Positions 13,018-60,765 of a DNA stretch of 64,000 nt are shown piece by piece (within the stretch, counting starts at the first letter, position 1; every line of letters starts with the position of its first letter). The notes under the pieces were generated by a model. It was not told the origin of the DNA and did no database searches. It saw only the letters and a program-made list of their open reading frames with translations. The translations under genes were made by a program, and so were the position numbers. The DNA lies in NCBI RefSeq assembly GCF_013401515.1, contig NZ_CP058531.1:1-64000 (forward strand). The letters are read 5' to 3'. The stretch is from Halorarum halophilum (GTDB taxonomy: Archaea; Halobacteriota; Halobacteria; Halobacteriales; Haloferacaceae).

Positions 13018-14424
13018 CTACGAGTGACTGCCGTCTACCAGCCGCTTTGCCTTTTCCCAGATAGATCTACCCAATGAGTCCGATTCGTCGGCAGATGTCT
13101 CGTCTTGGGACATCTGATCGTTTGTGGTCGACGCTAATGATGTTCGGAGTTCTGTGAGTTCCGTTTCGAGCGTCTCGATCCGTTCGCGCTGTCCTTCGAC
13201 TGTGGCCTCTCGTTGTTCGAATTTCGCCGAGAGAACCTTGTTCCGTTCGTTGAGATAGGCACGTTCACGCCCATCCGACCACCCACCTGTTTCGGCTTCC
13301 GTCGGCTCAATTGGTTCCCCCACCTCCGTCTGTGCTGTTTCCGTTGACTCGCTCGTCTCTGCCTGTGGTGCTCCCATAGGCTCGCCCACTTCCGCTCCTT
13401 TTTTCTCGGCCGACGGACCGTTCGACACTGCTGTGACCTCTTCGTCGAAGCCGTCGGATTCCTCCTGCTCGGCCGTCTCACTCCCTTTCGAGGGCTCGTA
13501 GAACTCGCCAGTGTTGTCGATGGCGCGCTTGACCGTCCGTTCACCGTAGGTGTCCTCGTTCGAGTAGCGGATTTCGTCCCATTTCTCTCGGTAGAGGTCC
13601 GACTTGCGGAACAACTGGTCCACCCACATCGCGTCTCCACCCGTCCAGAATGCCAGCAGACAACACAGCGCCATATCCGCTTCCGACTGACTCGGATATC
13701 CGCTCGTCCCGCCTCGCCACAATCGGTCGAACTTCTCGCCGTTCGATGCGTTCCGCGCCTTCTCAAGCAGTTCTTCGTCGGAGAACTTGACCTCCGTTAC
13801 CGATTCCTCCGGAAGGCCGGCTGCCCCGGTATCGACCGAATGAGTCGTCTCTTCCGACATCTCCCTGCCGCCCATCGACGGCTCCTGAACGTACTCACGA
13901 TGCACCTCGACGAGCGCATCCTGCCGTTCTTCCACGCTCTGCGGCTTAACGTCGACGCGATCGCCCGTCATGGTGAAGAACCGCGCCGACTCGTACATCT
14001 CCACGCTCCCGTGGCGGTTCCCGCCCTCGGGCAACTCCCCTTCGACCAGGACGTGGAATCCAGTCCCCGACGGGGAGATTTCCGTGTAAGAATCAAGCCG
14101 GTTGACGATGTCACGAGCGTCGTCGTCGATGCTCGATGTTTCTGGATCCCGGCAGTCATCAAGGTCGATCCCGACGAACGGATCGTTCTCACTGAACACG
14201 AAGCCGAGTCCATCCGCCTCGTCGCTCCGGATGTACTCGAGTGCAGTCTCGAAGTTGGTCCACGTCTCCGGATCAGTAGACGAGGCGAACACCCCCGTCC
14301 CTGGGGTAATGGGAATCTTGGTTGGCTTCCCGTCGCGCTCCTCTTCGCGCCAGCAGATCCACTGGTCGACGTCGACGAACTCACGTGGTACTCCTACCGG
14401 ATTTGTGACACTGTTTTCACTCAT
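13018..14424 (-). CDS. Primase-like replication protein (NrS-1/prim-pol type)
   Basis: A 468-residue protein from ATG 14424. Residues about 10-175 match the N-terminal domain of phage and plasmid prim-pol proteins: QWICWREEERDGKPTKIPIT, LGFVFSENDPFVGIDLDDC (acidic residues of the catalytic site) and SPSGTGFHVLVEGELP. Residues about 220-300 match the NrS-1 polymerase helix-bundle domain (KFDRLWRGGTSGYPSQSEAD, then ALCCLLAFW). The C-terminal third is low-complexity and then a coiled coil (ERNKVLSAKFEQREATVEGQ). No helicase domain is attached. It probably primes or starts replication of the element, and the iterons just upstream fit that. Confidence 0.75.
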   Translation of the reverse strand: MSENSVTNPVGVPREFVDVDQWICWREEERDGKPTKIPITPGTGVFASSTDPETWTNFETALEYIRSDEADGLGFVFSENDPFVGIDLDDCRDPETSSIDDDARDIVNRLDSYTEISPSGTGFHVLVEGELPEGGNRHGSVEMYESARFFTMTGDRVDVKPQSVEERQDALVEVHREYVQEPSMGGREMSEETTHSVDTGAAGLPEESVTEVKFSDEELLEKARNASNGEKFDRLWRGGTSGYPSQSEADMALCCLLAFWTGGDAMWVDQLFRKSDLYREKWDEIRYSNEDTYGERTVKRAIDNTGEFYEPSKGSETAEQEESDGFDEEVTAVSNGPSAEKKGAEVGEPMGAPQAETSESTETAQTEVGEPIEPTEAETGGWSDGRERAYLNERNKVLSAKFEQREATVEGQRERIETLETELTELRTSLASTTNDQMSQDETSADESDSLGRSIWEKAKRLVDGSHS

Positions 14425-14548
14425 GGTTCTCAGACCCTGTGTCATCGGCAGTCCACACCCTCTCAGCTTGCTGACAAACCTCCCCTGCGGCCTGCGGCCC
14501 CGCGCAACCCACTCTCCGACGGCCACCCCCCACCACTCTACTAGTCGG

Positions 14549-14800
14549 ATTTTGGTCGGAACAACACTCGATCTGAGCCGATAATCGCCCGACATGGCGA
14601 TGTTCCACCCAATGTTCCACGCATCGGGCTGACACGAATGAGCGGGATGTCGCGTCAGAAATGGGTGGAACACTCTGCCGTCCTGCGATTTTGGGCGGAA
14701 CACTAAACATGATCACGGCGGTCCCGTTAGATTGGGTGGAACACTTCGCCCTCTTGCGATTCCGAAAGTCGGATATTTCATACATCTTCTCGAAATATTA
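14549..14800. repeat. Iteron array between the virD4-like and primase-like genes
   Basis: The 12-mer GGGTGGAACACT or close variants recur at 14663-14674, 14693-14704 (GGGCGGAACACT) and 14734-14745, with a weaker one near 14555 (GGTCGGAACAACACT). Inverted forms lie at 14601-14611 (TGTTCCACCCA) and 14612-14620. Two copies extend to a 28-base unit ending CC.TC.TGCGATT, at 14663-14690 and 14734-14761, spaced 71 bp. An AT-rich stretch follows (GATATTTCATACATC). This is the layout of Rep-binding iterons or an autoregulatory operator, about 240 bp upstream of the primase-like start. Confidence 0.65.
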
Positions 14801-17800
14801 GGTGGAGTCGTCCTCTGTGTCGAGCGTGAAGCTGACAAAGAGGTGGGTCAATTCACCGTCGATTCTCTGTCTATCTGTCTCTACTTCGATATACTCCTTG
14901 AGCCGTCGTGTGAACCAGCTATTGCTCACTACCTCAACGCCAAGGTCGTCTGCCCACGACTCGTACGCTGAGTACACCTTCGACTTTCGAACGGCTACGT
15001 CCTCGTCAGTCTCGGTGAGGTGCTGGTCCGCGAAGATGCCGAGTGCTTCCTTCTTGTCGAGGTCGGCAATGCTGTTTGCTTGGTCGGATTCCTCGGCGGC
15101 TTCAGCGGTCGCCTCGGGGTTGGGGTCCGACTCTGCTTCCGCTTTATCGGGTTCAATCGTAGACGGTGTCTCCTCGGGGGACCCGTCCGGGTTACTGGGT
15201 ACTGTCTCAGCACTCGTCGCTTCGGTCTGATCAAGTTGATCGTCGGCCTCCGCGGTAGCCAGCTGCGGACCGTCGTCAACGAGCGTCTCAATCGGTGCTG
15301 TCTCACCCTGCTGGTAGACGACCGGATCGCCACCCTCGGGGAGGATGACAATCGCGTATGCGTCGTGGGTGTATTCGGGGACAGGCAGTTCCCGTTCGGG
15401 AATGAACGGCTTCTTGATCGGCACCCACTCGGTCTCAAACGCCTCTTTCGAGTCGTAGGTGTGGGTGGTGTCGTCCTCCAGAACGATGTACTGGTTGATG
15501 TCGGGGTCATAGGTGTAGACCGCCGGCACATCGCGGTCCATCGCCGTGTCAACACGCTGAATCCGCGCATCGTCGCTATCGCCTTCAACAGGCAGAACCG
15601 CGTCTCCGGTTTCCTCGTCGCGTCGCCACATCGACATTCGCGTGTCATCGTTGCTGGTCGCCGGACGGACAGCCGTCAACCGCTGGCCGGTCTCAATGTG
15701 CCGCACCTCCAGCTGGTGGGGGAACGTGTAGAGGCGAATTTCGTTGCTGTCGTCGATCTCCTTGACCGGGGGATGCAGAATTCCCTCGATCCGCTCGGCC
15801 CAGTATGAGTCGTTCTCCTCGGGCCGGACGATGAACAGCGGGATCGCCTCTTCGTCCTGTGCCTTTCGGAGATTCGTCAGCAGTTTCGCTGGCTTACTCG
15901 GTGTCGTGGTCTCGACTTCGATCACGAACTCGTCGTCCAAGTCGGGATGGGTCGCCCGTCCGTCGGGCTGTTCGCTCCCATCCTGCGGGACGACCGTCGT
16001 ATTGAACCCTGCCGTAGTCAGCGCTCGTTCCGCCTCGTACACGGCGTTGTCGTGGTCTTCGCTGCCCGCCGCCTGCACGTCGCCTGTGTCGGGCGCGACG
16101 GCCTCCTCGCCGCGCTCGGTGAGCGAGATGACCAGCTGGTCCTCCTCTGTGTCGAGTCCGACAGTGAGCAACTGTGAGCGTTCTCGGACCGCTCCCAGTT
16201 CGTCGTAACTCGGCGGCTCCACGTTTTCGTCACCGGCGGTGAACAGTTCGCGTAGTTCCTCGTCCACCTCCTCGACAGGCACCTCGCCGTTCTCCTCGCG
16301 CACCTCGTGTCTGAGCTGGATGGTGCGGACAACCTTCGCGAGCGCCTGATCGAGGTCGGCGTTCGTCGTGCTGAGTCGCTCCTGCACGTCCTCCGGGGAG
16401 TCACGCGGCTCGGGCTCCGGTTCGGGTACACCGAACACCTCGTCGGTTCGGGTCTGCACTCGGTCAATCGCGCTCTCGACACGCTTCGACTTCTCGCCGG
16501 TCAACGGCTCGTCGCTCTCGGGGTGGCCCTCGGGGATCGGTAGCGGGTCGACGCTGAACGGCTTGGGGCCCGTCTCGCCGAACGTCGGACTCGGCACTTG
16601 GGCGATCCACTCCCCACGCGGGAGCGACGCGATTCGGTCTTTGAACTCTCGGGGGCTCATCTCCTCATGAGCCATCGCCTCCGCGATCTCGCGGTCGACC
16701 GAGATTTTCCCGACCAGCGTCGTACCGATGTTGTTCAGCGCGTTTAGGTAGAGCCGCCGGCCACCTTCCTCCTCGATCTGTTCGGGGAACTGCATCGACA
16801 ACCCGACCGACAGCCGGAAGCCACGACCCTGTTCCAGCAGTCGATTCATGATGTCCGACGTGACAACCGACGCCGCCTCGTCGACGAGGAGATTGACCAC
16901 GTACTCCTCGGGCTTGTCGGAGAGGTCGTCCGACTGCTCGCGAAGCGCGTCCTCGAGGTTGCTCAGAATCAGGCCGCTCAGAAGTTTCGTCGGTTCGGCC
17001 CGCAGATTGCCAAGGTCGAAGATGACGACCGTATCGTCATCAAGCACCTCCCGAAAGTCGAACTCTTGGTCAGTGTTGTTGAAGATGTCTCGCAGCCGCC
17101 CGTCCTGTGAAACATACGCGAGGCGGTTGCTGACCCCTCCCATCACGCGACTGAACGCTGTCTGGTCCAACTGGAGTTGCCGGTCGATCCGCCGCCGGTC
17201 GTCGGGATCGCTCGATTGCGGCGCGTGTTCGGGCTGTGGCTTGGGTGGCCCGGCTTGCCACAACTGATCAAGCGCGTATTCGAGCTGCCGATGGGCGAAG
17301 TAGTCTTCATCCGCGCGGTACTGGCCGTTGTCTCGCCCATACTCGGCGTCGAAAAGCGCGGAGATGAGCGCCCGAATGAGCGTCGGAGCGACGGTCGCGC
17401 TCTCGTACTTGGCGCTTCCCATCGTGAGCTTCAGGATCTCCTCGTAGTGGTCGGCGGTCCGCTGGATCGCATCGATCCGACTCAGGCCATTGTCGAGCGC
17501 CGGTCGGAGATTGAAGAACGAGAAGCCGGGCAGAATGTCGGGGATCGAGAAATGGACGACGTTCTCCTCCATGTCGTCGACGCCGAAGCGGGCGGCGTGG
17601 GACCGCATGTAGTTCTCGGGCAGGCCGTCACCCTTCGGGTCGACCAGGACGATTGGCCCGTCCGTATGTTCGTACAGCGACAGCGCGTCGTTGATCAGCG
17701 CCTTCGACTTGCCTGACCCAGTGGTCCCGAACCGGCCGTAGTGGGTCGGGAGGAGCGACGGCGGGACGTAGGTCGGGTCGTCCTCGGGCGTCCCTGTCTC

Positions 17801-19303
17801 GTCCAACGCTCGGCCGATCGCCAGCCCACCCGTGTCGTGGAAGGAATCGGCGTGATCAGGCGCCGGCCGTTGGAGCGGATTCTGGCTCTCCTGTTTCGCG
17901 TCGGTCCCTCGGCGGCCCTCCATCGAGAGATTTTCCCCCGACGGAACCGTGATGAGGTTCGCGAGTTCGCTGGCGTTGAACGTGAAATCAAACCGAGTCT
18001 TGCGGCCACCGGTGACGAGTTTACGGTCCAGTAGACGTTCGAGGGCGCTCCGGGCGTACTGCTCTTTCTTGCTCTGACGGAAGCCGCTCCCGCGCAGGCG
18101 GTGGCCGTTGAACTGGTAGAACTCGCCATCGAGCGCGTCGAAGCCTGAGGCAAGGGCGTCAAGGCGCGTATCCAGTTCTTCCTCAGTCGTGTCGTCGCTC
18201 GGGATTGCGACGGCACGGGCGTTGACTGTGAACGTCCGCTTGGGCTGTTTGTCGTCGAGCTGATCTAGCCGCATCTCGTCACGGTCGCTCAGTTCGTGTT
18301 CGTCGGGCGTGGTGGGTTCGATGAAGTCCCAGATCTTCCCATACCACGTATCTAGATTGTGTTTGATGTCGTGTTTGCGCTGCCACGCGTCGGGCGACCA
18401 GTCTGCCTTCCGCCGGAACACGACCTGGAAGGCGATGGGTGCCTCGGATTCAACGAGATGGTCAATGATCGTCGCGAGCGGCACCCGCCGCTCGGAGTCG
18501 TCGGACGGGGAGGCCGTCTGGTCGTGGAAATCGGCGATGGTCATCATCCAGTCTTGCTTGTGCTCTGCGGCGAGCGCGTGCCACCGGACGCCCATCGGTG
18601 TGAGGTCGTTGATCGGTGGCCGGGCGAGGACTGTCCCGTCGTCGGTGAGCGTCGGGCGGGTGAGCGTGGTTGGCTCGACGCAACGCTGTGCGTCATCGAG
18701 ACGGAACGTGCCGTTGCTATACTCAACCGCCGTCGGATCGGGGATGTCCTCTTCGTCGTCTGCTTCGTTCTCCTCGTCAGCAGGGTCGTCACTCTCGCCC
18801 GTCTCGTTGTCGTCCGTGTCTCCCTCGGTCTCCTGCTTCTCTCTCGTCAGCAAACCGCCGTCACCGAGAATGCTCAGCCCGCTCGTGCCGTCGTCAATCA
18901 TGTCGGCCGCACCGGGCGTGTAGTAGAGCGAGTCGCTGTCGAGCCGGTCGGCAAACTCCTCTCGCTGGTACTCGACCGGATGGACGAGTCGGTGGGCGAC
19001 GTCCATCTCCACACGGTCGATGTCGAACGTGGTCGGGTACATCGACTCCAGTCGGTCTTCCAACGTGGTCAGGTCGCCGTCGGCGCCGACGTAGAACTCC
19101 ACAGGCTCGTCTGCGCCCTCACTCAGCGCGAGGAACTCGAACTGCGGGGGATACGACCCGTCTCCGGGCAACAGCCGTGTGACGCCACTCGTGGACTCCT
19201 CGACCGTGACCTTGTGGAGACTCTCGATCAGTCGCGGGATCGCCTCGGTGTGAAGCGACTGTGACGAGGGGCGCACTCGGAGGTACTCACGAGCGTTGCT
19301 CAT
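14798..19303 (-). CDS. VirD4-like conjugation ATPase with extra C-terminal domains
   Basis: A 1501-residue protein. A VirB4-style N-terminal region fills about 500 residues with an acidic linker. The ATPase core has Walker A GTTGSGKSK at about 526-534, DPKGDG near 555, and Walker B NLLVDEAAS near 804, followed by LSVGLSMQFPEQ, as in VirD4/TraD coupling proteins. Residues about 1085-1165 look like a restriction-nuclease fold (DEFVIEVETTTPSKPAKLL). Residues about 1417-1495 resemble the D5/P4-primase C-terminal winged helix (SKVYSAYESWADDLG...SNSWFTRRLKEYIEV). No membrane span is evident. It probably pumps or presents DNA for transfer. The start overlaps the VirB4-like stop by 4 bp. Confidence 0.75.
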   Translation of the reverse strand: MSNAREYLRVRPSSQSLHTEAIPRLIESLHKVTVEESTSGVTRLLPGDGSYPPQFEFLALSEGADEPVEFYVGADGDLTTLEDRLESMYPTTFDIDRVEMDVAHRLVHPVEYQREEFADRLDSDSLYYTPGAADMIDDGTSGLSILGDGGLLTREKQETEGDTDDNETGESDDPADEENEADDEEDIPDPTAVEYSNGTFRLDDAQRCVEPTTLTRPTLTDDGTVLARPPINDLTPMGVRWHALAAEHKQDWMMTIADFHDQTASPSDDSERRVPLATIIDHLVESEAPIAFQVVFRRKADWSPDAWQRKHDIKHNLDTWYGKIWDFIEPTTPDEHELSDRDEMRLDQLDDKQPKRTFTVNARAVAIPSDDTTEEELDTRLDALASGFDALDGEFYQFNGHRLRGSGFRQSKKEQYARSALERLLDRKLVTGGRKTRFDFTFNASELANLITVPSGENLSMEGRRGTDAKQESQNPLQRPAPDHADSFHDTGGLAIGRALDETGTPEDDPTYVPPSLLPTHYGRFGTTGSGKSKALINDALSLYEHTDGPIVLVDPKGDGLPENYMRSHAARFGVDDMEENVVHFSIPDILPGFSFFNLRPALDNGLSRIDAIQRTADHYEEILKLTMGSAKYESATVAPTLIRALISALFDAEYGRDNGQYRADEDYFAHRQLEYALDQLWQAGPPKPQPEHAPQSSDPDDRRRIDRQLQLDQTAFSRVMGGVSNRLAYVSQDGRLRDIFNNTDQEFDFREVLDDDTVVIFDLGNLRAEPTKLLSGLILSNLEDALREQSDDLSDKPEEYVVNLLVDEAASVVTSDIMNRLLEQGRGFRLSVGLSMQFPEQIEEEGGRRLYLNALNNIGTTLVGKISVDREIAEAMAHEEMSPREFKDRIASLPRGEWIAQVPSPTFGETGPKPFSVDPLPIPEGHPESDEPLTGEKSKRVESAIDRVQTRTDEVFGVPEPEPEPRDSPEDVQERLSTTNADLDQALAKVVRTIQLRHEVREENGEVPVEEVDEELRELFTAGDENVEPPSYDELGAVRERSQLLTVGLDTEEDQLVISLTERGEEAVAPDTGDVQAAGSEDHDNAVYEAERALTTAGFNTTVVPQDGSEQPDGRATHPDLDDEFVIEVETTTPSKPAKLLTNLRKAQDEEAIPLFIVRPEENDSYWAERIEGILHPPVKEIDDSNEIRLYTFPHQLEVRHIETGQRLTAVRPATSNDDTRMSMWRRDEETGDAVLPVEGDSDDARIQRVDTAMDRDVPAVYTYDPDINQYIVLEDDTTHTYDSKEAFETEWVPIKKPFIPERELPVPEYTHDAYAIVILPEGGDPVVYQQGETAPIETLVDDGPQLATAEADDQLDQTEATSAETVPSNPDGSPEETPSTIEPDKAEAESDPNPEATAEAAEESDQANSIADLDKKEALGIFADQHLTETDEDVAVRKSKVYSAYESWADDLGVEVVSNSWFTRRLKEYIEVETDRQRIDGELTHLFVSFTLDTEDDST

Positions 19304-21255
19304 ACGGTCACCCCCGACCCGACGGCACTCTCGTCGTTCGGCTCGTCCTCCGGCGGGTCGACGATTTCCATCTCCTCGGGCAACGCCGTGACCTTCACCG
19401 GATACCGGCCTTTATCCTGAACACAGACGAGCGCGTGACTATACCCACGCTCGCGGGTGCCCGGCTTGGCGTCACGAAGGAATTGTGCCTCCCGTGCGCT
19501 CAAACCGAGCTTCTTCCGATGCTCTTCTGAGAGGCCGGGAAGCTTCTGGAGGAGTTTGATCGACGACTCGTTCGCCAGCACCTCGGCTTTCTCGTGAACG
19601 AAGAAGTCGCTAATCTCCTGTGTGACCAGGTGGACGCTGAGGTCGTGGTGGCGGCTGTGTCGATAGGCACGTTCGAGCCAGTCGAGCGACCCCTCACTTT
19701 GCATCAGGTAGTGCGCCTCGTCGATGGCGAGAATCACGCGTTTGTCCGTCTGCTTGGCGCGCTCGTACACGGTGTCAAAGAGTACCTGTAACATGAGCGC
19801 AATCTCCTGGTCGGCCTCACCCTGCTGGAGGTCGAGATACGACACCGTCTCGCCCTCGAGATCGATGTCGGACGACCCAGCGAGGTTGTCGAACTCGCCG
19901 TCGCCGGTGAATGGCCGCATCGAGATGCGGAGGTTCGCCGCGAGTTCGCCCCACTTCTCGGACTCGGTCGCCGTGACTTCCGTCAGGTCCGACTCAGCGT
20001 TTGCCACGAACGCGTCGACGTCCTCGGCCATCTCGCCAAGGATTTCAAACACATCGATGACGGTGGGGCTCCCGTTGCTGTGGGTCGCCGGGTCGGTCGT
20101 GATTCCCTGCCGCCGGTACGCCTCGTGGACGGCGTCACCGAGGATCGCTCGTTCCTCCTTGTCCAACCCGGAACCGGCGCTATCGATGTGTCCGAAGTAG
20201 GTTGTGAAGAAGCCCATCACGCTCGACACCCGCTGGCCGTACGGGTTCAACTTGGAGGTCCGCTCCAGCACGTGCTGTGGGGTCGCCTCGATTTCGAGCG
20301 GGTTGATCTGCTGGCGGCCACCGACGATGATGTGTTCCGCGCTGAGTTCGTCCGCGAGACTCCGGAAGCCCTCCAGCGGGTCGACCATGATGAGGATCGT
20401 CTCAGAGTCGTTGGCGATCTCACGCAGGTTCAGGAGTTTTGCCGTGACTGACTTACCCGACCCGACCTGCGCCGCCGCGAGGACGTTGTAGCCGTTCGGC
20501 CGCTGGAAGCGGTCCACGACTACGGGCGCATCCGTCGTGGCGTGGTAGCCGTAGAGGACACCGGACTCTTCGATCAACGTCGACGCGGAGAACGGGAACA
20601 GCGCACCGAGGGCGCTGCCGAGCATCGGCGTGGTCGCACTCGGCAACCACTCGCTGATGGTGTCCTTCGCGACGGGACTCGCGCTCACCAGTCCGTCAGA
20701 CTGGTCATAGTCGACCGACCGAACGGTGAGCTGTTGCTTTTCGAGTTCCGCGCGAATCCGCTGGCACCGTTTTTCGACCTGTTCTTTTGACTCCCCCCGG
20801 ACAGGGAGGTACGCCGAGACATCGAAGATCGACTGCGACTCATCTGTCAACTGCGTCAGCACGTCCTCGTGGTCGCTGATCCGTCGTTCGGTCAGCCCAA
20901 TCGACGGATCGCCGTTCTCCTGTTTGCCTCGGTGAACGGTCTGAAGGTCACGGATCGCGTTTTCGACCTGCGTGATCGCTTGTTCCGTCTCACGGGGTTC
21001 GGCGTGAATCGAGAGGCCAACGTCGGCGCTCGGGTGGGTCGTGATCGTGTCGAGATGGCCCGGATTTGCGGTATCAGGCCAGTCGGTGATCATGAGCGTC
21101 TTGACCCACTGATCACCGGAGCGGGTGGCATCGGATTCGAGCCGGATACTCGCGGGGCCGACGTTCTGGGCGTGGGCGTCGGACTCGTCAAGTGTCTGGT
21201 CGTCGTCGACGTCGATACTGGTGAAGCGGTCGAGTAGCGTTTTGATGAGTGGCAT
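19300..21255 (-). CDS. VirB4/TraC-like conjugation ATPase
   Basis: A 651-residue protein. Walker A AQVGSGKSVTAK lies at about 262-273, followed by ILIMVDPLEGF. Walker B is VILAIDEAHYLMQ near 507-519, then RHHDLSVHLVTQEISDFF, the conserved VirB4 motif after the second acidic site. The N-terminal 240 residues are the variable VirB4 domain. VirB4 proteins power assembly and substrate passage of type IV secretion systems. It is placed between the PrgI-like and VirD4-like genes with a 3-bp gap and a 4-bp overlap, so all three are one transcript. Confidence 0.8.
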   Translation of the reverse strand: MPLIKTLLDRFTSIDVDDDQTLDESDAHAQNVGPASIRLESDATRSGDQWVKTLMITDWPDTANPGHLDTITTHPSADVGLSIHAEPRETEQAITQVENAIRDLQTVHRGKQENGDPSIGLTERRISDHEDVLTQLTDESQSIFDVSAYLPVRGESKEQVEKRCQRIRAELEKQQLTVRSVDYDQSDGLVSASPVAKDTISEWLPSATTPMLGSALGALFPFSASTLIEESGVLYGYHATTDAPVVVDRFQRPNGYNVLAAAQVGSGKSVTAKLLNLREIANDSETILIMVDPLEGFRSLADELSAEHIIVGGRQQINPLEIEATPQHVLERTSKLNPYGQRVSSVMGFFTTYFGHIDSAGSGLDKEERAILGDAVHEAYRRQGITTDPATHSNGSPTVIDVFEILGEMAEDVDAFVANAESDLTEVTATESEKWGELAANLRISMRPFTGDGEFDNLAGSSDIDLEGETVSYLDLQQGEADQEIALMLQVLFDTVYERAKQTDKRVILAIDEAHYLMQSEGSLDWLERAYRHSRHHDLSVHLVTQEISDFFVHEKAEVLANESSIKLLQKLPGLSEEHRKKLGLSAREAQFLRDAKPGTRERGYSHALVCVQDKGRYPVKVTALPEEMEIVDPPEDEPNDESAVGSGVTV

Positions 21256-21258
21256 GTG

Positions 21259-22317
21259 TTAGACCCTCTTGTCGGCGTCGCCAACCGTGACGACGGGTAT
21301 GGAACGAACGCGGTCGGTCGTCGAACGATACTGGGTACGGCGGCCCGTCCAGAACTCCTCGATCAGCGTTGCAAGACGGTCGGCCGAGACGGGCTCACAA
21401 TCGCACGAGTCGAGACCACGGATGGCCGCCTGCACGTCGTCGAGGCGCTGTTCGAGCGTCTCGCGCTGTTCTTGTTCGACTTCGGCGTCTGAGAGGCCGC
21501 TACTCTCGGCACCGATGAACGCGAGTAACCCGCCGACGTAGGGGAGCGACTGGAGCTGTGAGGTCGCCCCCCGCTCGGCCAACTGTACGTCGCGGATGCT
21601 GACCGGCACGAGGATGTGGTACTCGCGGAGGCTGGTGCCTCGTGCCCGGAACTCCGCCGGAAGGCGTGTCTCGTACGTTTCGACGATGTTCTGAAGCGCG
21701 TCGTTCGCCTGGACGTCGGGGTCGTCACGGCGATCCCGATAGCTCTCGGTGATCCGCTCAGGGTCGATCGACCGGGCGCTGGCGTGAATCTGGATCGGGA
21801 AACTGAGCGTGTTCAACGCGTTGCCAAGTGCGTCGGCGGCCCCGTCCCACTCGTCATGGGTCGCGAGCGCCATGTTCGCTGGGTCGACGCGGACGGCGGC
21901 GACAAGGTGGCCGTCCTGTCGCTCTACCGTATCGGCTTCGGGGACGAATCGGGCGACCTGTGTGAGTGTCTCGGGGCGGTCCTCGGGGGCTGTGTCCACG
22001 GCAGAGCGGGTGGTTTCGCGAGTGGCGAATCGCGCGATACGCGCAAGCCATCGATGCGGCGTCATGTGGTTCGGCGCGATGTAGACAATCGCACCTGCCA
22101 CGAGTAAGATCGCAAGTGCCACTGTGAGGCCGATCGTGACTCCCCAGCGCCCGCCGAGGCGAGAGCTGAGGGAGACAACCAGCAAGGCCCCAAACATTGC
22201 GGGGATGAACAGCTTGAGGTCGTCGAGGCTGTAGTCGATATCAACGCCGACGATTTCGTCGTCGGCGCCGAACTCATCGAGTACCCGTCGGTGGGGATCG
22301 CGGCTTCTGTTGCTCAT
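21259..22317 (-). CDS. PrgI/VirB3-like membrane protein of the transfer module
   Basis: A 352-residue protein. Two close membrane spans lie at about residues 34-50 and 58-80 after an acidic N-terminus (RRVLDEFGADDEIVGVDIDY), as in PrgI- and VirB3-type subunits. The following 260 residues are soluble and resemble the N-terminal domain of VirB4/TraC (VAAVRVDPANMALATHDEWD...ALGNALNTL..PIQIHASAR). It therefore looks like a VirB3-VirB4 N-domain fusion, with the VirB4 motor encoded next. A 14-bp gap separates it from the upstream gene. Confidence 0.65.
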   Translation of the reverse strand: MSNRSRDPHRRVLDEFGADDEIVGVDIDYSLDDLKLFIPAMFGALLVVSLSSRLGGRWGVTIGLTVALAILLVAGAIVYIAPNHMTPHRWLARIARFATRETTRSAVDTAPEDRPETLTQVARFVPEADTVERQDGHLVAAVRVDPANMALATHDEWDGAADALGNALNTLSFPIQIHASARSIDPERITESYRDRRDDPDVQANDALQNIVETYETRLPAEFRARGTSLREYHILVPVSIRDVQLAERGATSQLQSLPYVGGLLAFIGAESSGLSDAEVEQEQRETLEQRLDDVQAAIRGLDSCDCEPVSADRLATLIEEFWTGRRTQYRSTTDRVRSIPVVTVGDADKRV

Positions 22318-22331
22318 GGATTGGATTGAAG

Positions 22332-23867
22332 TTAGCCGTTGTGCGGGTCTGTGTCGTCAGGATTCGCGTGTTTCTGGTTCTGCTCGGTCGGCGGCCAGTC
22401 GTCGTCGAGCGACCAGACGCGGTCGATGACCGACCGGATGCTGTACATAGTGCGCGCACCCCACACTGACCGCTGTTCAGCCAGCCGGCGACCAACGTAC
22501 AACGCACCGACGGCTGGGGTGGCAATCAGCGTGGACTCGAAGACAGTGGGAGGGAGAAGCGAACCCGAAGTTAGGTATGAAGTGGTGGCACCAGCGAGCG
22601 CGACGAACAGCGCGTACCAGGAGCCGAACACCCACGGCGCTGGGTTGACCGGCTGTCCGTGAATATCGCGGTCTTTGCGGAGTGCTTTTCGGAGGTAGAA
22701 CGCGACGCCGGCTGACCCGACGCTCCAGAAGATGAGCGCACCGAACAGCATCCCTTCGGGGAAGACATTGTGCCGGATAAGAATCCAGTCGACCGCGCCA
22801 AACAGTCCGACGGCGGCAAGGCCGGCGACGAACTGCCAGCGCGGGCGGCCGTGTCCAACTGATGGTGTCTCACCACGTCGTCGTTTGTCGCGGAATAGTT
22901 CTCGTTCGTAGGCACGCTCCTGCTCGTAGACGTGGACAACGTATCCGACAGCGATCCCGACGAAGGCGAGCCATGGACGATCGAATAGTACCGATCCGAT
23001 AGCTTGGTACTGGGTAACTGTGGACCCCGCCCAGTGGAGCCCCGTTTCGGGGGAAACGAATAACGCTCCGATAGCACCGGCAGCTGCAACACCCATCGCG
23101 AGTAGTACAGTCAGTCCGATTGTCGCGACAAGCGCTCGTCGAAGGATGACTGCCCGTCCTGTGTGAGCGAAGACACGGAGTTTCTCGGAGAACTCGCGTA
23201 GGCACGCCTTCGTATATTTCAGCGAAGGCTCCTTACTTGCAGTCTTGAGTTCAATCGCCCGCTTCGTTTTCTGGTCAGCGACATTGTTGTCTTCCCACTC
23301 GACACAGTCCCAGCAGATCGTGATGTTCTCATCAATGGGACCGTCAATCTCTCCTTCTGGCTGTACTGATCCCATGACGTACCCGACACGGCCTCTAGGA
23401 ATGACTACACTCCCACAGACCTGGCAGTTGTAGTTATCGCGTCGAGCAACCCGATGAATGAGCTGGTCACTCGTCTCTACTTCAGCTGTTTGTCGCTCAG
23501 GAAGTAGGGAATGTAGCTCATTCCCGACTGTTCCGATAGCCGTGTGAAGCCGAGTTCGAAGCGATGACGACACCATCCTGTCGCTGTCGATATTAGAGGT
23601 CTGATTTGCGTCTTGGCTACCCATTCTGCGCTGACGCCGTGCCTTAGCTGTGGATGTCTCTTCGCGAAGCTGTTCGTCATCCTTCTTTAGGCAATCGTGG
23701 CAGACAGTGACAAGGTTCTCGACTCGATGGTCATCTTGTTTGACTGGAACGGCGGCGAGTCCCCGTTCCGTCTTGGGGTACCCGATAGTCCCACAGAGTT
23801 GGCAGGTATGACGGTCCCGTTTGAGTGCGGCATCGCTTGCCTCACTATAATCAGCGTCTCTGGTCAT
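22332..23867 (-). CDS. Membrane protein with two HNH-like zinc domains
   Basis: A 511-residue protein. Residues about 20-60 have CQLCG...ENLVTVCHDCLKK and residues about 146-190 have CQVCG...ENITICWDCVEW. Each is a four-Cys treble-clef unit of HNH-nuclease type, though the usual first catalytic His is not clear in either. After a charged linker come four to six membrane spans between residues 240 and 480. The start overlaps the next upstream gene by 4 bp. The zinc units face the cytoplasm if the positive-inside rule holds. I know no named family with this fusion; its place in the operon suggests a part of the transfer channel or a DNA-handling subunit. Confidence 0.6.
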   Translation of the reverse strand: MTRDADYSEASDAALKRDRHTCQLCGTIGYPKTERGLAAVPVKQDDHRVENLVTVCHDCLKKDDEQLREETSTAKARRQRRMGSQDANQTSNIDSDRMVSSSLRTRLHTAIGTVGNELHSLLPERQTAEVETSDQLIHRVARRDNYNCQVCGSVVIPRGRVGYVMGSVQPEGEIDGPIDENITICWDCVEWEDNNVADQKTKRAIELKTASKEPSLKYTKACLREFSEKLRVFAHTGRAVILRRALVATIGLTVLLAMGVAAAGAIGALFVSPETGLHWAGSTVTQYQAIGSVLFDRPWLAFVGIAVGYVVHVYEQERAYERELFRDKRRRGETPSVGHGRPRWQFVAGLAAVGLFGAVDWILIRHNVFPEGMLFGALIFWSVGSAGVAFYLRKALRKDRDIHGQPVNPAPWVFGSWYALFVALAGATTSYLTSGSLLPPTVFESTLIATPAVGALYVGRRLAEQRSVWGARTMYSIRSVIDRVWSLDDDWPPTEQNQKHANPDDTDPHNG

Positions 23868-25756
23868 CGCTGAGTCTCCCGAACAGCATTCATACTGTCG
23901 TGGTGTTGCCGCTCGTACCGTCCCTGCCGGTACTCCCCATCTTGGACTACCCTTCGGGCGTCGTAGGTGGTCTCGTGCGACTCATCGTAGAGAACAACAG
24001 GTTCTCCGTCACGTTTCTCTGAGAGTTCCTTGAGCCCTCCTTCATCAAGTAGCCAACCGGAGTTCGAGTCCCCTTGACTGACGGACTTGAACTCACCGTC
24101 GTCCTTGAAATAGCCCGCATTGTACTGGTCTTGATCCAGTTCCATCCGAGTCATCGCTTTCTCGAAGCCGAGCCCGTCAGGAACGCTGTCAGCGTACTCC
24201 TGCGTCGGGCGGCTAGTGATTTGGTCCCACGCGCTCGAACTCGCACTACTACTCTTCGTGGAACTACTCGAGGCGGACACAGCTGAGGCAGACGTACTCT
24301 CGTTCGTGCCGCCAGTCGCGCCGAACGAGGGCGACGTCGGGGGTGCCGGTGGCCCGCGGACACCTTCGACCCTCGAACTGCCATCGCCGAGTTCACCGGC
24401 GACCTCGGAACCGTTCGCCGGTCCGAGTCGGCCGCCGAACGCATCGTTGTTCTCATGCGAGAACGGTGAGCCATTCAGCGGGTCGACCGCCCGTCCGGCG
24501 CCGGCAGTATTGACTCCCTCGTCGCTACTAGATGCTCCCGACCGACCCGAACCACCGAGGTTCAGATTGGATCGGGAGAAGCTCCGTCCAGCAGCTGCGC
24601 CGAGGGCACCGGCGGCAAACATCTGTAATGGGCGCATCTTTCGCCCGCCAACGAATAAGAACAACGGGGCAGTCAGTGCCGTGAACCACAACGTCAGCAC
24701 CATCACCATCATGACATCGTCGCCAATCACCAAGCCTGCTGCCCAGCCGAGTTGTCCTCGAAGCGCATTCACCACGGGATAGCCGACCCCGAGGATGATC
24801 GCCGTCGGGACAGGCATGAGTGCCGCGGGCGCGAACAACGACCGGAAGAACTCGCCTTTCTGGGCGATCCATTCGAAGATCCAGATGTCCGGCAACGACA
24901 GTGCGATGAACACCGGGTACACCGGCATCAGGATGAACGGGGCGACGTAGGACAACCCGAACACAATCGCGATGAGTGCGAGCAGGACGCCCGACGAGAG
25001 GTAGATCAGGATCGCCGCAGCGCCGGCGCTGCCCGCCGTCCCTACCACCGACTGGAGGCTCGTGAAGATCTCATCACCGGTGGGCGCGAACGTCTGTGCG
25101 ATCCCGAGCGAGAGGTGCAACACGAGCGAGCACCAGATCCACGACGCGAGGATTCGGAAGAGTGCAATCCACCCCTCCGATAGTTTCGTTTTCGCCTCAA
25201 CTGTCGGGCCGGACGGCAGGAATGCGGTGAGTCGGAGCAGGAGCATTGAGAGTATCCACACGCCGATCGCGGCGGGCAGGCCCACGTTGAGCCATACAGC
25301 GCGGACCGTGGTCATCGGTGGGTTGGTCGGCTCACCGGCGAGTGCCACGTTTCCGTTTCGGAGTGGGACGGGCCGGCTGACCAGCATCTGAACGACGTCC
25401 TCGGCGGCGTTCTGGAGCTGAGAGAGCACCCAGTCTTTGACGTCGTCGCCGACAGCGTCGACGGTCTGTACCAGCCCTTGGCAGACTTGCCCACCGATAC
25501 CGCTGACGCCATTACACACGCCATTCGCGTTGACCGCTGACCCGTTCGTGCTGTTCGCAGGCACAGCCGGGGTCGTGGGAGTCGCCGGCGTCGTCGGTGT
25601 CATCAGCGACAAAGACGATGTCGACGACAGTGAGGACGGTCTAGGCGGTTCATCACTGGATACGGGCGTCGGTGGGAGTGCTGTGGCTGGGGATGCGGCA
25701 GCGGTGCTAACAACCAGCAGGAGTACGAGCCCGAGCAGATGTGTGGAGTTATTCAT
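23864..25756 (-). CDS. VirB6/TrbL-like polytopic membrane protein
   Basis: A 630-residue protein. From ATG 25756 it has a signal peptide (STHLLGLVLLLVVSTAAASP) and an acidic linker. Five or six long membrane spans follow between about residues 160 and 400, several Gly/Ala-rich. The C-terminal 230 residues are hydrophilic, Ser/Gly-rich and poorly conserved-looking. Size and topology fit VirB6/TrbL, the inner-membrane channel of type IV secretion. The frame extends 34 codons upstream of the chosen start, without a good start codon. It follows the pilin-like gene by 46 bp. Confidence 0.65.
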   Translation of the reverse strand: MNNSTHLLGLVLLLVVSTAAASPATALPPTPVSSDEPPRPSSLSSTSSLSLMTPTTPATPTTPAVPANSTNGSAVNANGVCNGVSGIGGQVCQGLVQTVDAVGDDVKDWVLSQLQNAAEDVVQMLVSRPVPLRNGNVALAGEPTNPPMTTVRAVWLNVGLPAAIGVWILSMLLLRLTAFLPSGPTVEAKTKLSEGWIALFRILASWIWCSLVLHLSLGIAQTFAPTGDEIFTSLQSVVGTAGSAGAAAILIYLSSGVLLALIAIVFGLSYVAPFILMPVYPVFIALSLPDIWIFEWIAQKGEFFRSLFAPAALMPVPTAIILGVGYPVVNALRGQLGWAAGLVIGDDVMMVMVLTLWFTALTAPLFLFVGGRKMRPLQMFAAGALGAAAGRSFSRSNLNLGGSGRSGASSSDEGVNTAGAGRAVDPLNGSPFSHENNDAFGGRLGPANGSEVAGELGDGSSRVEGVRGPPAPPTSPSFGATGGTNESTSASAVSASSSSTKSSSASSSAWDQITSRPTQEYADSVPDGLGFEKAMTRMELDQDQYNAGYFKDDGEFKSVSQGDSNSGWLLDEGGLKELSEKRDGEPVVLYDESHETTYDARRVVQDGEYRQGRYERQHHDSMNAVRETQR

Positions 25757-25802
25757 CAGGGGAAGGTGGGGAGCGGTCGTTGGATCGCTCCGTCGTGGGA
25801 AT

Positions 25803-26240
25803 TCAGATGAACGGGACGAGGTCGACACAGGTCGCGAGGTTGACGCCCGTGAACCCAATGAACAGCTCCATCACGAGCGCGAACAGTGGCGTCGTGATGG
25901 AGGCGAACGCCGCCCGGTTCCGCCAGTCCTTGATCTCTTGCACGGACTGGGGGTTTTTCGGGAACGCGGAGGCGTTGTGCAGTATATACGCGAGAATTGC
26001 GCCGCCGATCATCAGCAGGCCAACGATGAGTGGAGCAGCCTGATTGATCGTGTCCGCAAGGGGGGTACCACAGATACCCGCTCCTGCCTGTGCGGAGGCA
26101 GGAGCGGTCATTCCGACGAGGGCAGCAACGACCACCTTTCCCGCCGATTGGATATACGTCCGGGTTGTACCTGGGATGCGATTACCCACGGATGTGTGGG
26201 TCTGTGCTTGTTCTTCGGACTGCGTATCGCTCGAAGTCAT
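25803..26240 (-). CDS. VirB2-like pilin candidate
   Basis: A 145-residue protein. A charged leader (MTSSDTQSEEQAQTHTSVGN) precedes a first hydrophobic segment ending near ASAQAGAGIC, which reads like a cleaved signal. Two further spans (PLIVGLLMIGGAILAYIL and TPLFALVMELFIGFTGV) are joined by a short basic loop. That is the VirB2 plan: leader, short periplasmic turn, two spans. It is the first gene of the minus-strand module, with a TATA-like element about 40 bp upstream. A Cys in CGTPL and one near the C-terminus may pair. Confidence 0.55.
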   Translation of the reverse strand: MTSSDTQSEEQAQTHTSVGNRIPGTTRTYIQSAGKVVVAALVGMTAPASAQAGAGICGTPLADTINQAAPLIVGLLMIGGAILAYILHNASAFPKNPQSVQEIKDWRNRAAFASITTPLFALVMELFIGFTGVNLATCVDLVPFI

Positions 26241-26275
26241 CTCGGGGTCCTCCACTTCTGACCCCGGTGGGAACT

Positions 26276-55756: not shown

Positions 55757-58729
55757 ATGATGGTCGTGGATGATGCTGAGACCTCCGACTCGAAGCAGGA
55801 CGAGGAAAGTGATGGTGATTCCACGGGTACCAGCGCCACGCCCAACGAAACGACGACCCCACCAGCGAGGGTTGGCACGTATACGTGGGAAGATTTTCTT
55901 GCCGAATACGCTCCGGATGGAACCGCCGATGAACTGTATGGCGAACGCGATCACACTCCCGGCAGCGACCGGCGGAAAGACTCGTCGGCCGGCGCCAGAC
56001 CGTCAGATAGCGACTGGGACCGCATCGACTATGATGTCAGCCCGCACCTTGGCTTCCATCCGGACGACATTGAGTCGCGGGTCGACGACGCAAGGCGGGA
56101 CGCGACGGACCTTCAGTCATACTTTGAGCAGTGGTGTGACCCTGAAACGACGCCCGTCCGTAAGGACCACTACGTCTGGGAACATTACAAGGCCGAATAT
56201 TACTACGACGAAGAGGGGAACCCACCCACCGAAGACGGGAAGCTGGTCGAGTTCGATCCTTCACCGAAGCTTGGCTTTGAACCTGACCAAGTCGAGGAGA
56301 TTATCGGCCATCTGAGCAAGCGTGCTCCCGAACTCGCGGACCTCATAGACGAGCGAACGGTGAACGTCGCTGGGAATCTTGACGAGGATGCGTTCTTCAC
56401 GAAGGACGACGGTACACCCACCGTCGTCAGCCGGTACGACCTGGAGAAGGCTGTCCCGATGGCAAAGAAGACCCACTTCCAAGAGGTGGAGCGTTACTGG
56501 GTGCACGAGCCGTACACGTTCGTTATCATCTTTCACTCGACCAAGGAGAACGAGAAAAAATACTACGTCATCGAGCCGTACATGAACAACGTCGAGTCGA
56601 ACTTTCAGGAATTCATGACGAGCAAGTTACGCACGGCGATCAAGTACTCCGACTCGGACGTCGCCGTTGGCAGCGAAGACGACCGCGCGGCGGTCATCGA
56701 ACGGGAGACGTACGGGCTCCTTGAGCGGTATGACCTCTACGAACGCGAACAATCGGCCGGTCTCGTCGATCGACTCGCCGAGATGCTCAGCGTCGAAGCG
56801 GACAGCGATCGTCTACCCGCTCGGTTGCTCCGAAAGTTTGGCTGGGAGCCATTCACGGCGGACTCCTCCACTCTCGAAGGAATGTCAGTGCGACCGGAGC
56901 CTGTCGTCCTGGCGGAAGACGCACACACGTTGAACCAATTCCAAGTCAACAAACTCCTCTACTACCTTCAGCGCGACTTCATCGGCTACGAGCGCATTGA
57001 TGGCATCAAACACGACGTCAACGTGGAGGATATCTCCTGTGACGGGTACAACAGCCCCGTCTTCGTCTACCACGGCGACTACGAGCAGATCATCTCGAAC
57101 GTCTATCACGGTGAGACGGAACTCGACGACTTCGTAGTGAAACTCGCCCAACGGTCTGGGAAGGGTATCTCGAAGCGTCGTCCCCAGGTTGACGCGACAC
57201 TCCCGGACGGCTCACGTGCCCAGCTCACCCTCGGGAGAGAGGTGTCGGACCACGGGACGAACTACACTATCCGCCAGTTCAAGGAGGTTCCATTTACACC
57301 GATCGACCTCATCAACTGGCACACGTTCTCGCTCGACGAGATGGCGTTCCTCTGGCTCTGCATCGAGAACCACAAGAGTCTGATCTTCGCCGGTGGGACA
57401 GCGTCCGGGAAGACGACAAGTCTGAACGCCGTTTCATTGTTTATCCCCTCGAATGCGAAAATCGTCTCTATAGAGGACACCCGCGAGGTCGAACTCCCAC
57501 AGCGCAACTGGATCGCGTCGGTCACCCGCCCGTCATTCTCCGACGACGACAAGGGCGACGTGGACGAGTTCGACCTGCTCGAGGCTGCGCTCCGACAACG
57601 GCCAGAGTACATCGTGATGGGCGAGATCCGGGGCGAGGAAGGGCGAACACTGTTCCAGGTCATGTCGACCGGCCACACGACCTACACGACGTTCCACGCG
57701 GACAGCGTCGGCGAGGTGCTAAAGCGATTCACTACCGAGCCAATCAACGTCTCCAAGACGATGTTCACGGCGCTCGACCTGGTCTCCGTCCAGACGTCGA
57801 CGCGGGTACAGGGACGGAAAGTCCGCCGGAACAAGTCGCTGACCGAGATCAACCACTACGACGCCGAGAACGACGAGATCAACGTCCAAGATATCTACCA
57901 GTGGCAAGCCGAGACCGACCAGTATCTAGAGATGGGCGAGTCGAACACGCTCGAGGAGATAAAGTTCGACCGCGGCTGGAACCAGCAGACGCTTGAGGAG
58001 GAACTATTCAAGCGTGAGGTGGTCATCGCGTACCTCATCGACCGCGGGCTGAACACGTACACGGAAGTTGCGGCGACCCTTCAGGCGTTCATCAACGATG
58101 CTGACTCCATCCTCTCGCTGATAGCGACCGACGAACTCGAAGCGTCGCTCGAAGACCTCCGGGAGATGGAGTCGGTCCTCATCGACGTTGATCCCGAGAT
58201 GGAGGCGATGGTCCCACGACCTGACCCGACCCCGGAAGTCATGGAACTCGCCGACGAGATTCTCGCACGAGCGGACGAAGACCTCTTTCCGCAATACCGC
58301 GAACATCCGACTGGCAGTATTGCAGAGGCGCTCGCTGACATCCGACCGGCCGAGCCCATCGAAGCACCTCCGTCCAGTGGCGAAGAGACATTCCCCGACC
58401 GTGATGGGAGTGATGACCGAGAGGAGACGTCCGCCACAGACGTAGGTGGAGATGACGAAGCCACTGCATTTGAGGACTGGGGCGACGCTGACGACGACCG
58501 GTTCGACGCGGGTATTGCCTTTAGAGAGAATCCTGGAGTAGGGGACGAACGCGACACTGACAGTGCGAGGGGTTCCCCCAACTCCGAGGCTGACAATACC
58601 ACTGACCGCGGTGAAACCACCTCCGAAGAGACCGCATCCGATTCGAACGACGACGACTGGGAATTCGGCCGGTTCCACGATTCAAGTTCGCAGGCTAACC
58701 GCGATGAGGAGGAGGAGGAGGATCGATGA
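55757..58729 (+). CDS. pilB: Type IV pilus assembly ATPase (PilB-like)
   Basis: A 990-residue protein of the archaeal type II/IV secretion ATPase family. An acidic disordered N-terminus is followed by a paired APDGTADELYG / FEPDQVEEIIGHL region and an N-terminal domain. The motor has Walker A IFAGGTASGKTTS at about 538-550, the Asp box SIEDTREVELPQ, Walker B EYIVMGEIRGEEGRT near 616, and His box TGHTTYTTFHADS. A 150-residue acidic tail ends it. ATP hydrolysis drives pilus subunits into the membrane platform. The stop overlaps pilC by 4 bp (ATGA). Haloarchaeal pilB3-type genes have this length and context. Confidence 0.9.
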   Translation: MMVVDDAETSDSKQDEESDGDSTGTSATPNETTTPPARVGTYTWEDFLAEYAPDGTADELYGERDHTPGSDRRKDSSAGARPSDSDWDRIDYDVSPHLGFHPDDIESRVDDARRDATDLQSYFEQWCDPETTPVRKDHYVWEHYKAEYYYDEEGNPPTEDGKLVEFDPSPKLGFEPDQVEEIIGHLSKRAPELADLIDERTVNVAGNLDEDAFFTKDDGTPTVVSRYDLEKAVPMAKKTHFQEVERYWVHEPYTFVIIFHSTKENEKKYYVIEPYMNNVESNFQEFMTSKLRTAIKYSDSDVAVGSEDDRAAVIERETYGLLERYDLYEREQSAGLVDRLAEMLSVEADSDRLPARLLRKFGWEPFTADSSTLEGMSVRPEPVVLAEDAHTLNQFQVNKLLYYLQRDFIGYERIDGIKHDVNVEDISCDGYNSPVFVYHGDYEQIISNVYHGETELDDFVVKLAQRSGKGISKRRPQVDATLPDGSRAQLTLGREVSDHGTNYTIRQFKEVPFTPIDLINWHTFSLDEMAFLWLCIENHKSLIFAGGTASGKTTSLNAVSLFIPSNAKIVSIEDTREVELPQRNWIASVTRPSFSDDDKGDVDEFDLLEAALRQRPEYIVMGEIRGEEGRTLFQVMSTGHTTYTTFHADSVGEVLKRFTTEPINVSKTMFTALDLVSVQTSTRVQGRKVRRNKSLTEINHYDAENDEINVQDIYQWQAETDQYLEMGESNTLEEIKFDRGWNQQTLEEELFKREVVIAYLIDRGLNTYTEVAATLQAFINDADSILSLIATDELEASLEDLREMESVLIDVDPEMEAMVPRPDPTPEVMELADEILARADEDLFPQYREHPTGSIAEALADIRPAEPIEAPPSSGEETFPDRDGSDDREETSATDVGGDDEATAFEDWGDADDDRFDAGIAFRENPGVGDERDTDSARGSPNSEADNTTDRGETTSEETASDSNDDDWEFGRFHDSSSQANRDEEEEEDR

Positions 58730-60765
58730 GCCTCAGGACGTCGCAGAGTGGGATGGGCGGCGACCGAGACGTACTCGGCGATGCGTTCTACCCGCTGTTC
58801 CAGCGCCTCTTTGACGAGGATGGTGACCTCGTCGACGATGTTGAGCGGAAACTTGCCGAGGCCCGGATGTCTACGACCGTCGAATTATACCTCTCACGAT
58901 CGCTTGCCTATGGCGTCATCGTCGGGTTCCTGTTGTGGGTTGCCGGGACGCTGCTCGCGTTCATGCTATTCAATCTTGGTGTCATCACAGAGGAGATGCT
59001 CTCGCTCGGTGCACGCATCCCCAACATGAGGCTACTGAACCTCATCGTCGCCGCGAAGGTCCCAGTGGCCATCGGGCTTATCGGACTCGTATTCGGCTCT
59101 ATCGGTTTTGGCATGGGCTTCGGAACGATGGTCGCGATTCCCTACTCGAAATCCTCCTCGCGGAAACGCGAGATCAACATGCTCCTCACCGACTCCGTCT
59201 CGTTCATGTACGCGCTGTCGGTCGGCGGGCTGAACCAGCTTGAGATCCTGCAGTCCATGGCAAAGGCTGAGGACACGTACGGTGAGGTTGCCAAGGAGTT
59301 CCAGAATATTGTTAACGAGACTGAATACTTCGGTATCGACTACCGGACAGCCATTCGCAATCAGGCGATCGAGACGCCAAGCGATGAACTCTCGCAGTTC
59401 CTCACCGACATGCTCTCCATAATCAACTCCGGCGGGGACATGGAGCAGTTCCTTGACGACAAGAAGGAGAAGCACATGCGCACCGCAAAACAGGAACAGG
59501 AGATGACCCTGGACACACTGGAGTTGTTCGGCGAAATGTTCATGACTCTCTCGTTGTTCCCCCTGCTACTGATCATCATCCTCGTCATCATGAGCATGCT
59601 CGGCAGCGCCGACGACGCCATGCTCTACGCGACCGTCTACGGGCTCATTCCGATGACTGGCATCGGCTTCTTGGTGCTGGTCTCGACGGTCAAGCAAGAC
59701 GAGGTCGGCGACGGCTATCTCAGTCCGTCGGACTCCAGCACTCGTCTCAGAGGGGCACAAAGGGAGAGCCTGTTCCACCTCGGTCTCGTTGAATCGTTCG
59801 TCGGTGAACACAGCCTGTTCGATCGCGTCAGGTCCCGTGAGGGAACCTGGAAAACCAAGAAGCTCCTCACACAACCGCACCGCTTCTTCCGCGATCAGCC
59901 GGCGTACACGCTCGTGCTGACGGTGCCTGCGACCATTGCATTGCTGGCCGTTGCCGTCACATCCGGCTCTGCACCACGGTCATGGGAAGGCATGGTTGCC
60001 CAACCAGTCTGGGGGACATTCATCTGGATCTACGTTCCGATTTACGTGGTGGCAATCCCCTTGGCGGTGTTCCACACGTGGAACGTTCGCTCGCGCAACG
60101 CCATCATCGGGAAACTCTCGGATGACCTCCGGAAACTCTCGAGCGCCAACGATACCGGCCTCACACTTCTGGAATCGTTCAAGACTGTCTCCGAGACTTC
60201 CTCCGGAAAGCTCGCGAACGAGTTTGATATCATGTACGGAAAGGTGAAGTACGGGATGAGCCTCAAGGAGGCTCTGGTCGAGTTCAACAACAAGTACCAC
60301 ATTCCTCGGCTGGCTCGCACAGTCAAACTCATCACGAAGGCGCAGGAGGCGTCGAGCCAGATCACAGCCGTGCTGACGACCGCCGCTCAGGCCTCGGAGA
60401 ACCAGGACGATATCGACCGCGAGCGCACGTCACGAACGCGCATGCAGATCGTCATTATCATCATGACGTACCTGACGATGCTCGCCGTCATGGCCATCCT
60501 GAAGACGCAGTTCCTCGATGTGATGTCCGGTCTGACCGCGCAGGCGGGTGGGAACAGTGGCAGCACACAGGCCGGAGGTATGAGCTTTGGTGGCGGTGTG
60601 GACACTAATGTCCTGTCGGTGCTGTTCTTTCACGCCGTCACGCTGCAGGCAATTCTCTCGGGGCTCATTAGCGGGTACATCGGGAGCGCCGACATCATGT
60701 CCGGCGTGAAATTCGTCGTCATCCTCCAGACGATCGCCCTCATGGTGTGGATGGTGGTCGGATGA
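58726..60765 (+). CDS. pilC: Type IV pilus membrane platform protein (PilC/TadC-like)
   Basis: A 679-residue protein with two tandem T2SSF domains. Each has spans and a cytoplasmic helix bundle: GLNQLEILQSMAKAEDTYGE...EYFGIDYRTAIRNQAIETPS in the first, and NDTGLTLLESFKTVSETSSG...LKEALVEFNNKYHIPRLART in the second. About nine spans in all, including three at the C-terminus. PilC anchors the ATPase and starts the filament in the membrane. Starts by ATGA overlap with pilB and overlaps the next gene likewise. Confidence 0.9.
   Translation: MSLRTSQSGMGGDRDVLGDAFYPLFQRLFDEDGDLVDDVERKLAEARMSTTVELYLSRSLAYGVIVGFLLWVAGTLLAFMLFNLGVITEEMLSLGARIPNMRLLNLIVAAKVPVAIGLIGLVFGSIGFGMGFGTMVAIPYSKSSSRKREINMLLTDSVSFMYALSVGGLNQLEILQSMAKAEDTYGEVAKEFQNIVNETEYFGIDYRTAIRNQAIETPSDELSQFLTDMLSIINSGGDMEQFLDDKKEKHMRTAKQEQEMTLDTLELFGEMFMTLSLFPLLLIIILVIMSMLGSADDAMLYATVYGLIPMTGIGFLVLVSTVKQDEVGDGYLSPSDSSTRLRGAQRESLFHLGLVESFVGEHSLFDRVRSREGTWKTKKLLTQPHRFFRDQPAYTLVLTVPATIALLAVAVTSGSAPRSWEGMVAQPVWGTFIWIYVPIYVVAIPLAVFHTWNVRSRNAIIGKLSDDLRKLSSANDTGLTLLESFKTVSETSSGKLANEFDIMYGKVKYGMSLKEALVEFNNKYHIPRLARTVKLITKAQEASSQITAVLTTAAQASENQDDIDRERTSRTRMQIVIIIMTYLTMLAVMAILKTQFLDVMSGLTAQAGGNSGSTQAGGMSFGGGVDTNVLSVLFFHAVTLQAILSGLISGYIGSADIMSGVKFVVILQTIALMVWMVVG

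Follow-up and report, generated by a model that had tools for sequence, protein, structure and literature searches.

The long reading frame studied here (Table 1) is, by a slight balance of probability, best explained as the type IV coupling protein of a putative haloarchaeal conjugative plasmid, which would carry a module for DNA recognition and cutting in cis and is a candidate for the missing relaxase function. This explanation was drawn from sequence comparisons, and is supported by the invariance of a nuclease-like motif across different ATPase contexts, the location of the gene in a transfer operon, the probable exchange of the C-terminal module between ATPases, and the lack of matches to known relaxase families in the genome. 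The window (i.e., the whole stretch of 64,000 nucleotides that was analyzed) is part of a 186.7-kb contig in a haloarchaeal genome of 4.28 Mb.

The original prediction gave the frame correctly, including a length about twice that usual for coupling proteins, and the gene is real given its full-length homologue in Candidatus Halobonum tyrrellensis (1490 residues, 90% identical) and its plasmid relatives. PLSDB holds 169 plasmids that match the coupling ATPase (41 over at least 80% of its length); the matches listed are haloarchaeal, the best being about 50% identical, and some match was found in 131 of 194 genomes of the class. The architecture had been proposed as one unfamiliar from described systems. 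All three of its parts found support, but it is not confined to one protein, because the 41 haloarchaeal plasmids mark a widespread family. Furthermore, the winged helix is already annotated, since RefSeq labels some family members ‘primase-like DNA-binding domain-containing protein’. In the literature searched, which left out most subscription journals and preprints, neither the nuclease fusion nor a pair of interchangeable modules was described. Partial relatives also occur: a 316-aa protein (L004, G000:C1:1499932-1500426) matches the coupling ATPase in the N-terminal part only, and two free-standing fragments of the C-terminal region (L010:7013-7807 and L011:6995-7357; 265 and 121 aa), distant from transfer genes, are probably remnants.

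Table 1 Features of the coupling ATPase and its operon (positions in the window; residues refer to the coupling ATPase).
Feature	Position	Strand	Evidence
NrS-1-type primase-like protein	13018..14703	(-)	PHROG DNA primase E 2.5e-93; NrS1 HBD E 5.5e-29; syntenic in 7 loci
VirD4/HerA-like coupling ATPase with C-terminal DNA-processing module	14798..19303	(-)	1501 aa, ATG, single intact frame
D5/P4 primase-type winged helix, residues ~1412-1496	14816..15070	(-)	Pox_D5 in 19/19 members; RFX matches
Conserved domain between nuclease and winged helix, residues 1205-1340	15284..15691	(-)	55% mean column identity (alignment)
Probable PD-(D/E)XK-like nuclease domain, residues ~1071-1200	15704..16093	(-)	H1084, P1113-D1114, E1129-x-E1131, N in LTNL
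Probable first winged helix, residues 985-1070	16094..16351	(-)	Conserved in alignment; HHH-EE order in low-confidence model
ATPase core, residues 500-950	16454..17806	(-)	Pfam DUF87; Walker A and Walker B
VirB4-like ATPase	19300..21255	(-)	NCBIfam VirB4-like CD1110 family E 2e-51, TraC E 5e-24
352-aa membrane protein, 2 TM	21259..22317	(-)	Syntenic in other operons
VirB6/TrbL-like membrane protein	23864..25858	(-)	Pfam TrbL_3 E 6e-6; 6 TM; syntenic
Pilin (VirB2-like) candidate	25803..26255	(-)	150 aa, signal-like N-terminus, 2 TM

Based on its ATPase core, with Walker A (GTTGSGKS, residues 526–533) and Walker B (LLVDEA, residues 805–810) motifs, the protein belongs to the HerA/TraG clade and has the pump core of a type IV coupling protein. 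The Pfam DUF87/HerA profile scored above its cut-off (28.6 vs 23.2 bits), TraG-D_C and T4SS-DNA_transf matched the core below theirs, and the core also aligned with VirB4 (E = 1.9e-6). The first 500 residues are conserved within the family; a VirB4-like identity for them was rejected, as they gave no match. No transmembrane segment was predicted in the protein or in the relatives checked; an N-terminal transmembrane domain is present in most VirD4-type coupling proteins, not in all.

The gene is located in a transfer operon with VirB4, as expected of a coupling protein, and its ATG is overlapped by the VirB4-like stop codon by 4 bases. The order pilin candidate, VirB6, 352-aa protein, VirB4, VirD4, and primase recurs on other plasmids, with the primase gene (its true start probably lies further in) downstream of the coupling ATPase. 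This context bears on a very improbable explanation, in which the protein is a HerA/FtsK-capture defence or exclusion factor that turns its nuclease against DNA entering the cell or competing with the element, a role suggested for DndH. A restriction-endonuclease domain fused to HerA/FtsK has been described for DndH (PMC10853773), and PADLOC returned a mad8 match (E = 1.8e-10); however, this match is limited to the ATPase core, PADLOC gave only mad8 and HerA with no DndH match, and the gene lies within the VirB4/VirB6/pilin/primase operon. Between the VirB6 and 352-aa protein genes (22332–23867) lies the gene for a 511-aa protein that has three transmembrane segments and is HNH-like in its N-terminal regions. 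As a nickase it was rejected: being limited to this operon and that of the 90% homologue, and absent from the other operons compared, it is not the common nuclease. A search for an oriT through repeats identified none, the only repeat being an imperfect direct repeat of 29 nt (14662–14690 and 14733–14761, 86% identical) at the boundary of the primase and coupling ATPase genes. The same contig contains PilB3/PilC3-type archaeal type IV pilus genes (55757–63006).

The E-x-E pattern that had been proposed for residues ~1085–1165 falls inside the larger conserved nuclease-like domain. When 26 relatives were aligned, they gave the conserved block HD..l...E..L...gf.v.i..QDGSE.PD..A.HP.....IEvEtTT...P.KvL.NL..A....P.FVV, and a profile of this block found the same domain behind coupling ATPases that differ considerably and range from 640 to 3342 residues. 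Nine columns, including the P, D, E, and E of PD...ExE, were invariant in a 20-sequence alignment that included some of these relatives with different ATPases. In a wider set of homologues, the acidic residues were conserved almost without exception (D 68/69, both E 69/69), as were H (67/67), P (70/70), and N (67/67). The conserved domain that follows the nuclease (residues 1205–1340) does so in other ATPases as well, and the region preceding the nuclease (residues 985–1070) had no convincing Pfam match.

Comparisons to known nucleases pointed in the same direction. A PDB sequence search with the nuclease profile gave as its best, weak match the PD-(D/E)XK nuclease 4qbn (E = 0.57), with PD aligned on PD and ExE on ExK, and a profile comparison with archaeal Hjc showed the same register for PD and E-x (E = 0.011, compared to 0.09–0.23 for three unrelated profiles). 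An AlphaFold model of residues 985–1210 (pLDDT 37) had an order of helices and strands compatible with an alpha-beta-beta-beta-alpha-beta core; this model and that of the winged helix described below are of low confidence because each was made from two sequences. Viral contigs scanned with the nuclease, the ATPase, and the 640-aa relatives to deepen the alignment yielded no relatives. Because these individually weak matches agree with the invariance of the motif, a PD-(D/E)XK-like domain is probable.

In this domain, E-x-E stands in place of E-x-K and the lysine is not fully conserved (K in 53/67), two features that would suit a nuclease fold devoid of catalysis which, together with the winged helix, only recognizes cognate DNA. 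ExE nuclease sites can be active, as in BamHI. We regard a recognition-only role as unlikely, given that even very divergent members retain D and both E almost without exception, which is hard to reconcile with a purely structural domain.

The C-terminal winged helix, expected at residues ~1417–1495, is secure as a sequence family assignment. Pfam Pox_D5 matched it in the coupling ATPase (E = 1.2e-5; 26.1 bits for the isolated domain vs a cut-off of 21.4) and in all 19 homologues tested (best E = 1.7e-8), 14 of which also matched RFX. PDB sequence matches were to RFX5 (8zjr, E = 6e-4) and RFX1 (1dp7, E = 0.011), and PHROG DNA primase was matched as well. A Foldseek search with the AlphaFold model of residues 1409–1499 (pLDDT 51) gave no match.

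Relatives whose match stops at about residue 960 are not truncated proteins, as they end in another C-terminal block. This second module type consists of a winged-helix-like stretch followed by H ... D ... E-x-E ... D-Y/F-D-K, and profile comparison aligned its H, D, and ExE positions with those of the first type (E = 4e-5). Among 85 ATPases examined, the nuclease is combined with the D5 winged helix in 49 and occurs without it in 11, and 24 have the second type (one locus is truncated), counts to be read with the provision that the second-type profile was made from the same proteins it was counted in, which had been picked by their ATPase. The D5-type module is found at several places on the ATPase tree: L009 groups with a deep separate clade (on a long branch) and L013 with the second-type ATPases, both with starred support, even though both carry the D5-type C-terminus. 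These positions suggest that the nuclease and winged-helix module was probably exchanged between distantly related coupling ATPases; because it moves in this manner, it probably sets substrate choice.

Several variants of these proteins were found. The chromosome of the same genome encodes a second coupling ATPase with the other C-terminal module type (L003, G000:C1 ~3158613-3161123). Coupling-ATPase megaproteins of 2400–3342 residues are encoded at L061:2638-12663 (-), L073:2525-9745, L060:335-8368, and L076:5026-12351, that of L061 having a DnaG N-terminal-like region (Pfam DNAG_N, E = 7.8e-5) in addition to the ATPase and the nuclease-like domain. At the other extreme, several haloarchaeal genomes encode 635–640-aa proteins of coupling ATPase and nuclease (L056-L059, L067), which show the architecture in its minimal form.

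A coupling ATPase and a nuclease on one chain also recall terminases. Accordingly, the nuclease could process ends in a terminase- or HerA-NurA-like manner, making double-strand cuts or resecting during pumping with no site-specific nick, in which case DNA may move double-stranded. The register shared with Hjc fits this explanation, as does the proposal that the HerA-NurA repair machinery supplies the ssDNA for transfer in archaea (PMC9905601). Against it, the nuclease has a DNA-recognition-like domain on either side, 49 of the 60 ATPases with this nuclease type also have the D5 winged helix, and the NurA fold differs (PMC9905601). We therefore consider end processing fairly unlikely.

Archaeal conjugative elements are reported to have no recognizable relaxase (PMC9905601, PMC12857230), and the MOBC family demonstrates that a relaxase can be made of a winged helix and a PD-(D/E)XK domain (PMC12857230). 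The relaxase profiles PF03432, PF08751, and PF07514 had no match in the genome and matched their controls. PF13814 (Replic_Relax) was likewise without a match in the genome, an absence that counts for little because the profile was also silent in its control genomes; nor did it match the coupling ATPase. Membership of the nuclease-like domain in MOBC was not supported: its motif resembles theirs, but hhalign comparisons were not significant (E = 0.39–0.64), in a test that was weak, as the MOBC profile comprised 4 rows and did not recover a known positive pair (with Hjc) either. The ‘non-mobilizable’ labels assigned by MOB-suite were set aside as weak evidence because CloDF13 receives the same label, although the MOBC of pAM373 was recognized.

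The original prediction that one protein could find, cut, and pump element DNA holds for the three-part architecture (ATPase, PD-(D/E)XK-like domain, and D5-type winged helix), and the mechanism is its most economical reading. The winged helices would recognize a site on the element’s own DNA, where the PD-(D/E)XK-like domain would cut, most likely introducing a relaxase-like nick. The hexameric ATPase would then thread the DNA to the VirB4/VirB6/pilin channel, and the adjacent primase may prime second-strand synthesis. More tentatively, and with somewhat less than even confidence, we propose that the missing archaeal relaxase is this winged-helix and PD-(D/E)XK module, fused to the haloarchaeal coupling protein such that one polypeptide recognizes, nicks, and pumps, with two unlike versions swapped among ATPases. 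Three candidate catalytic residues (D1114, E1129, and E1131) in cis with a pump found on 41 plasmids open the question to experiment in haloarchaea that are amenable to genetics. An active nuclease would, in addition, make this a coupling protein able to dispense with a separate relaxosome.

Compared to known systems, the protein shares parts with several. Fsx1-bearing haloarchaeal integrated mobile elements carry HerA, VirB4, and TraG/VirD4-type genes, whereas the part of their description considered here does not mention a nuclease fusion (PMC9259645). DndH and HerA/FtsK-capture systems combine a restriction-endonuclease-type domain and a HerA/FtsK ATPase on one chain in a defence context, rather than in a conjugation operon as here. 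MOBC relaxases (TraX of pAD1 and its pAM373 homologue; Replic_Relax) resemble it in placing a winged helix ahead of a PD-(D/E)XK-type domain (both domains being probable here), and in their motif, H ... D ... FEIELT ... K as against H ... PD ... E-V-E-T-T; however, the pAM373 relaxase is a separate protein encoded near the coupling protein, and no sequence or profile match was significant. With D5/P4 primase-helicases, the C-terminal winged helix (Pox_D5) is shared at the level of sequence family membership, and is attached there to an SF3 helicase but here to a coupling ATPase. Lastly, VirD4/TraG/TraD coupling proteins share the P-loop pump core, the TraG-D_C-like region, and the adjoining VirB4 in a transfer operon, whereas the haloarchaeal protein lacks their transmembrane domain, is about twice as long, and ends in nuclease-like and winged-helix domains.
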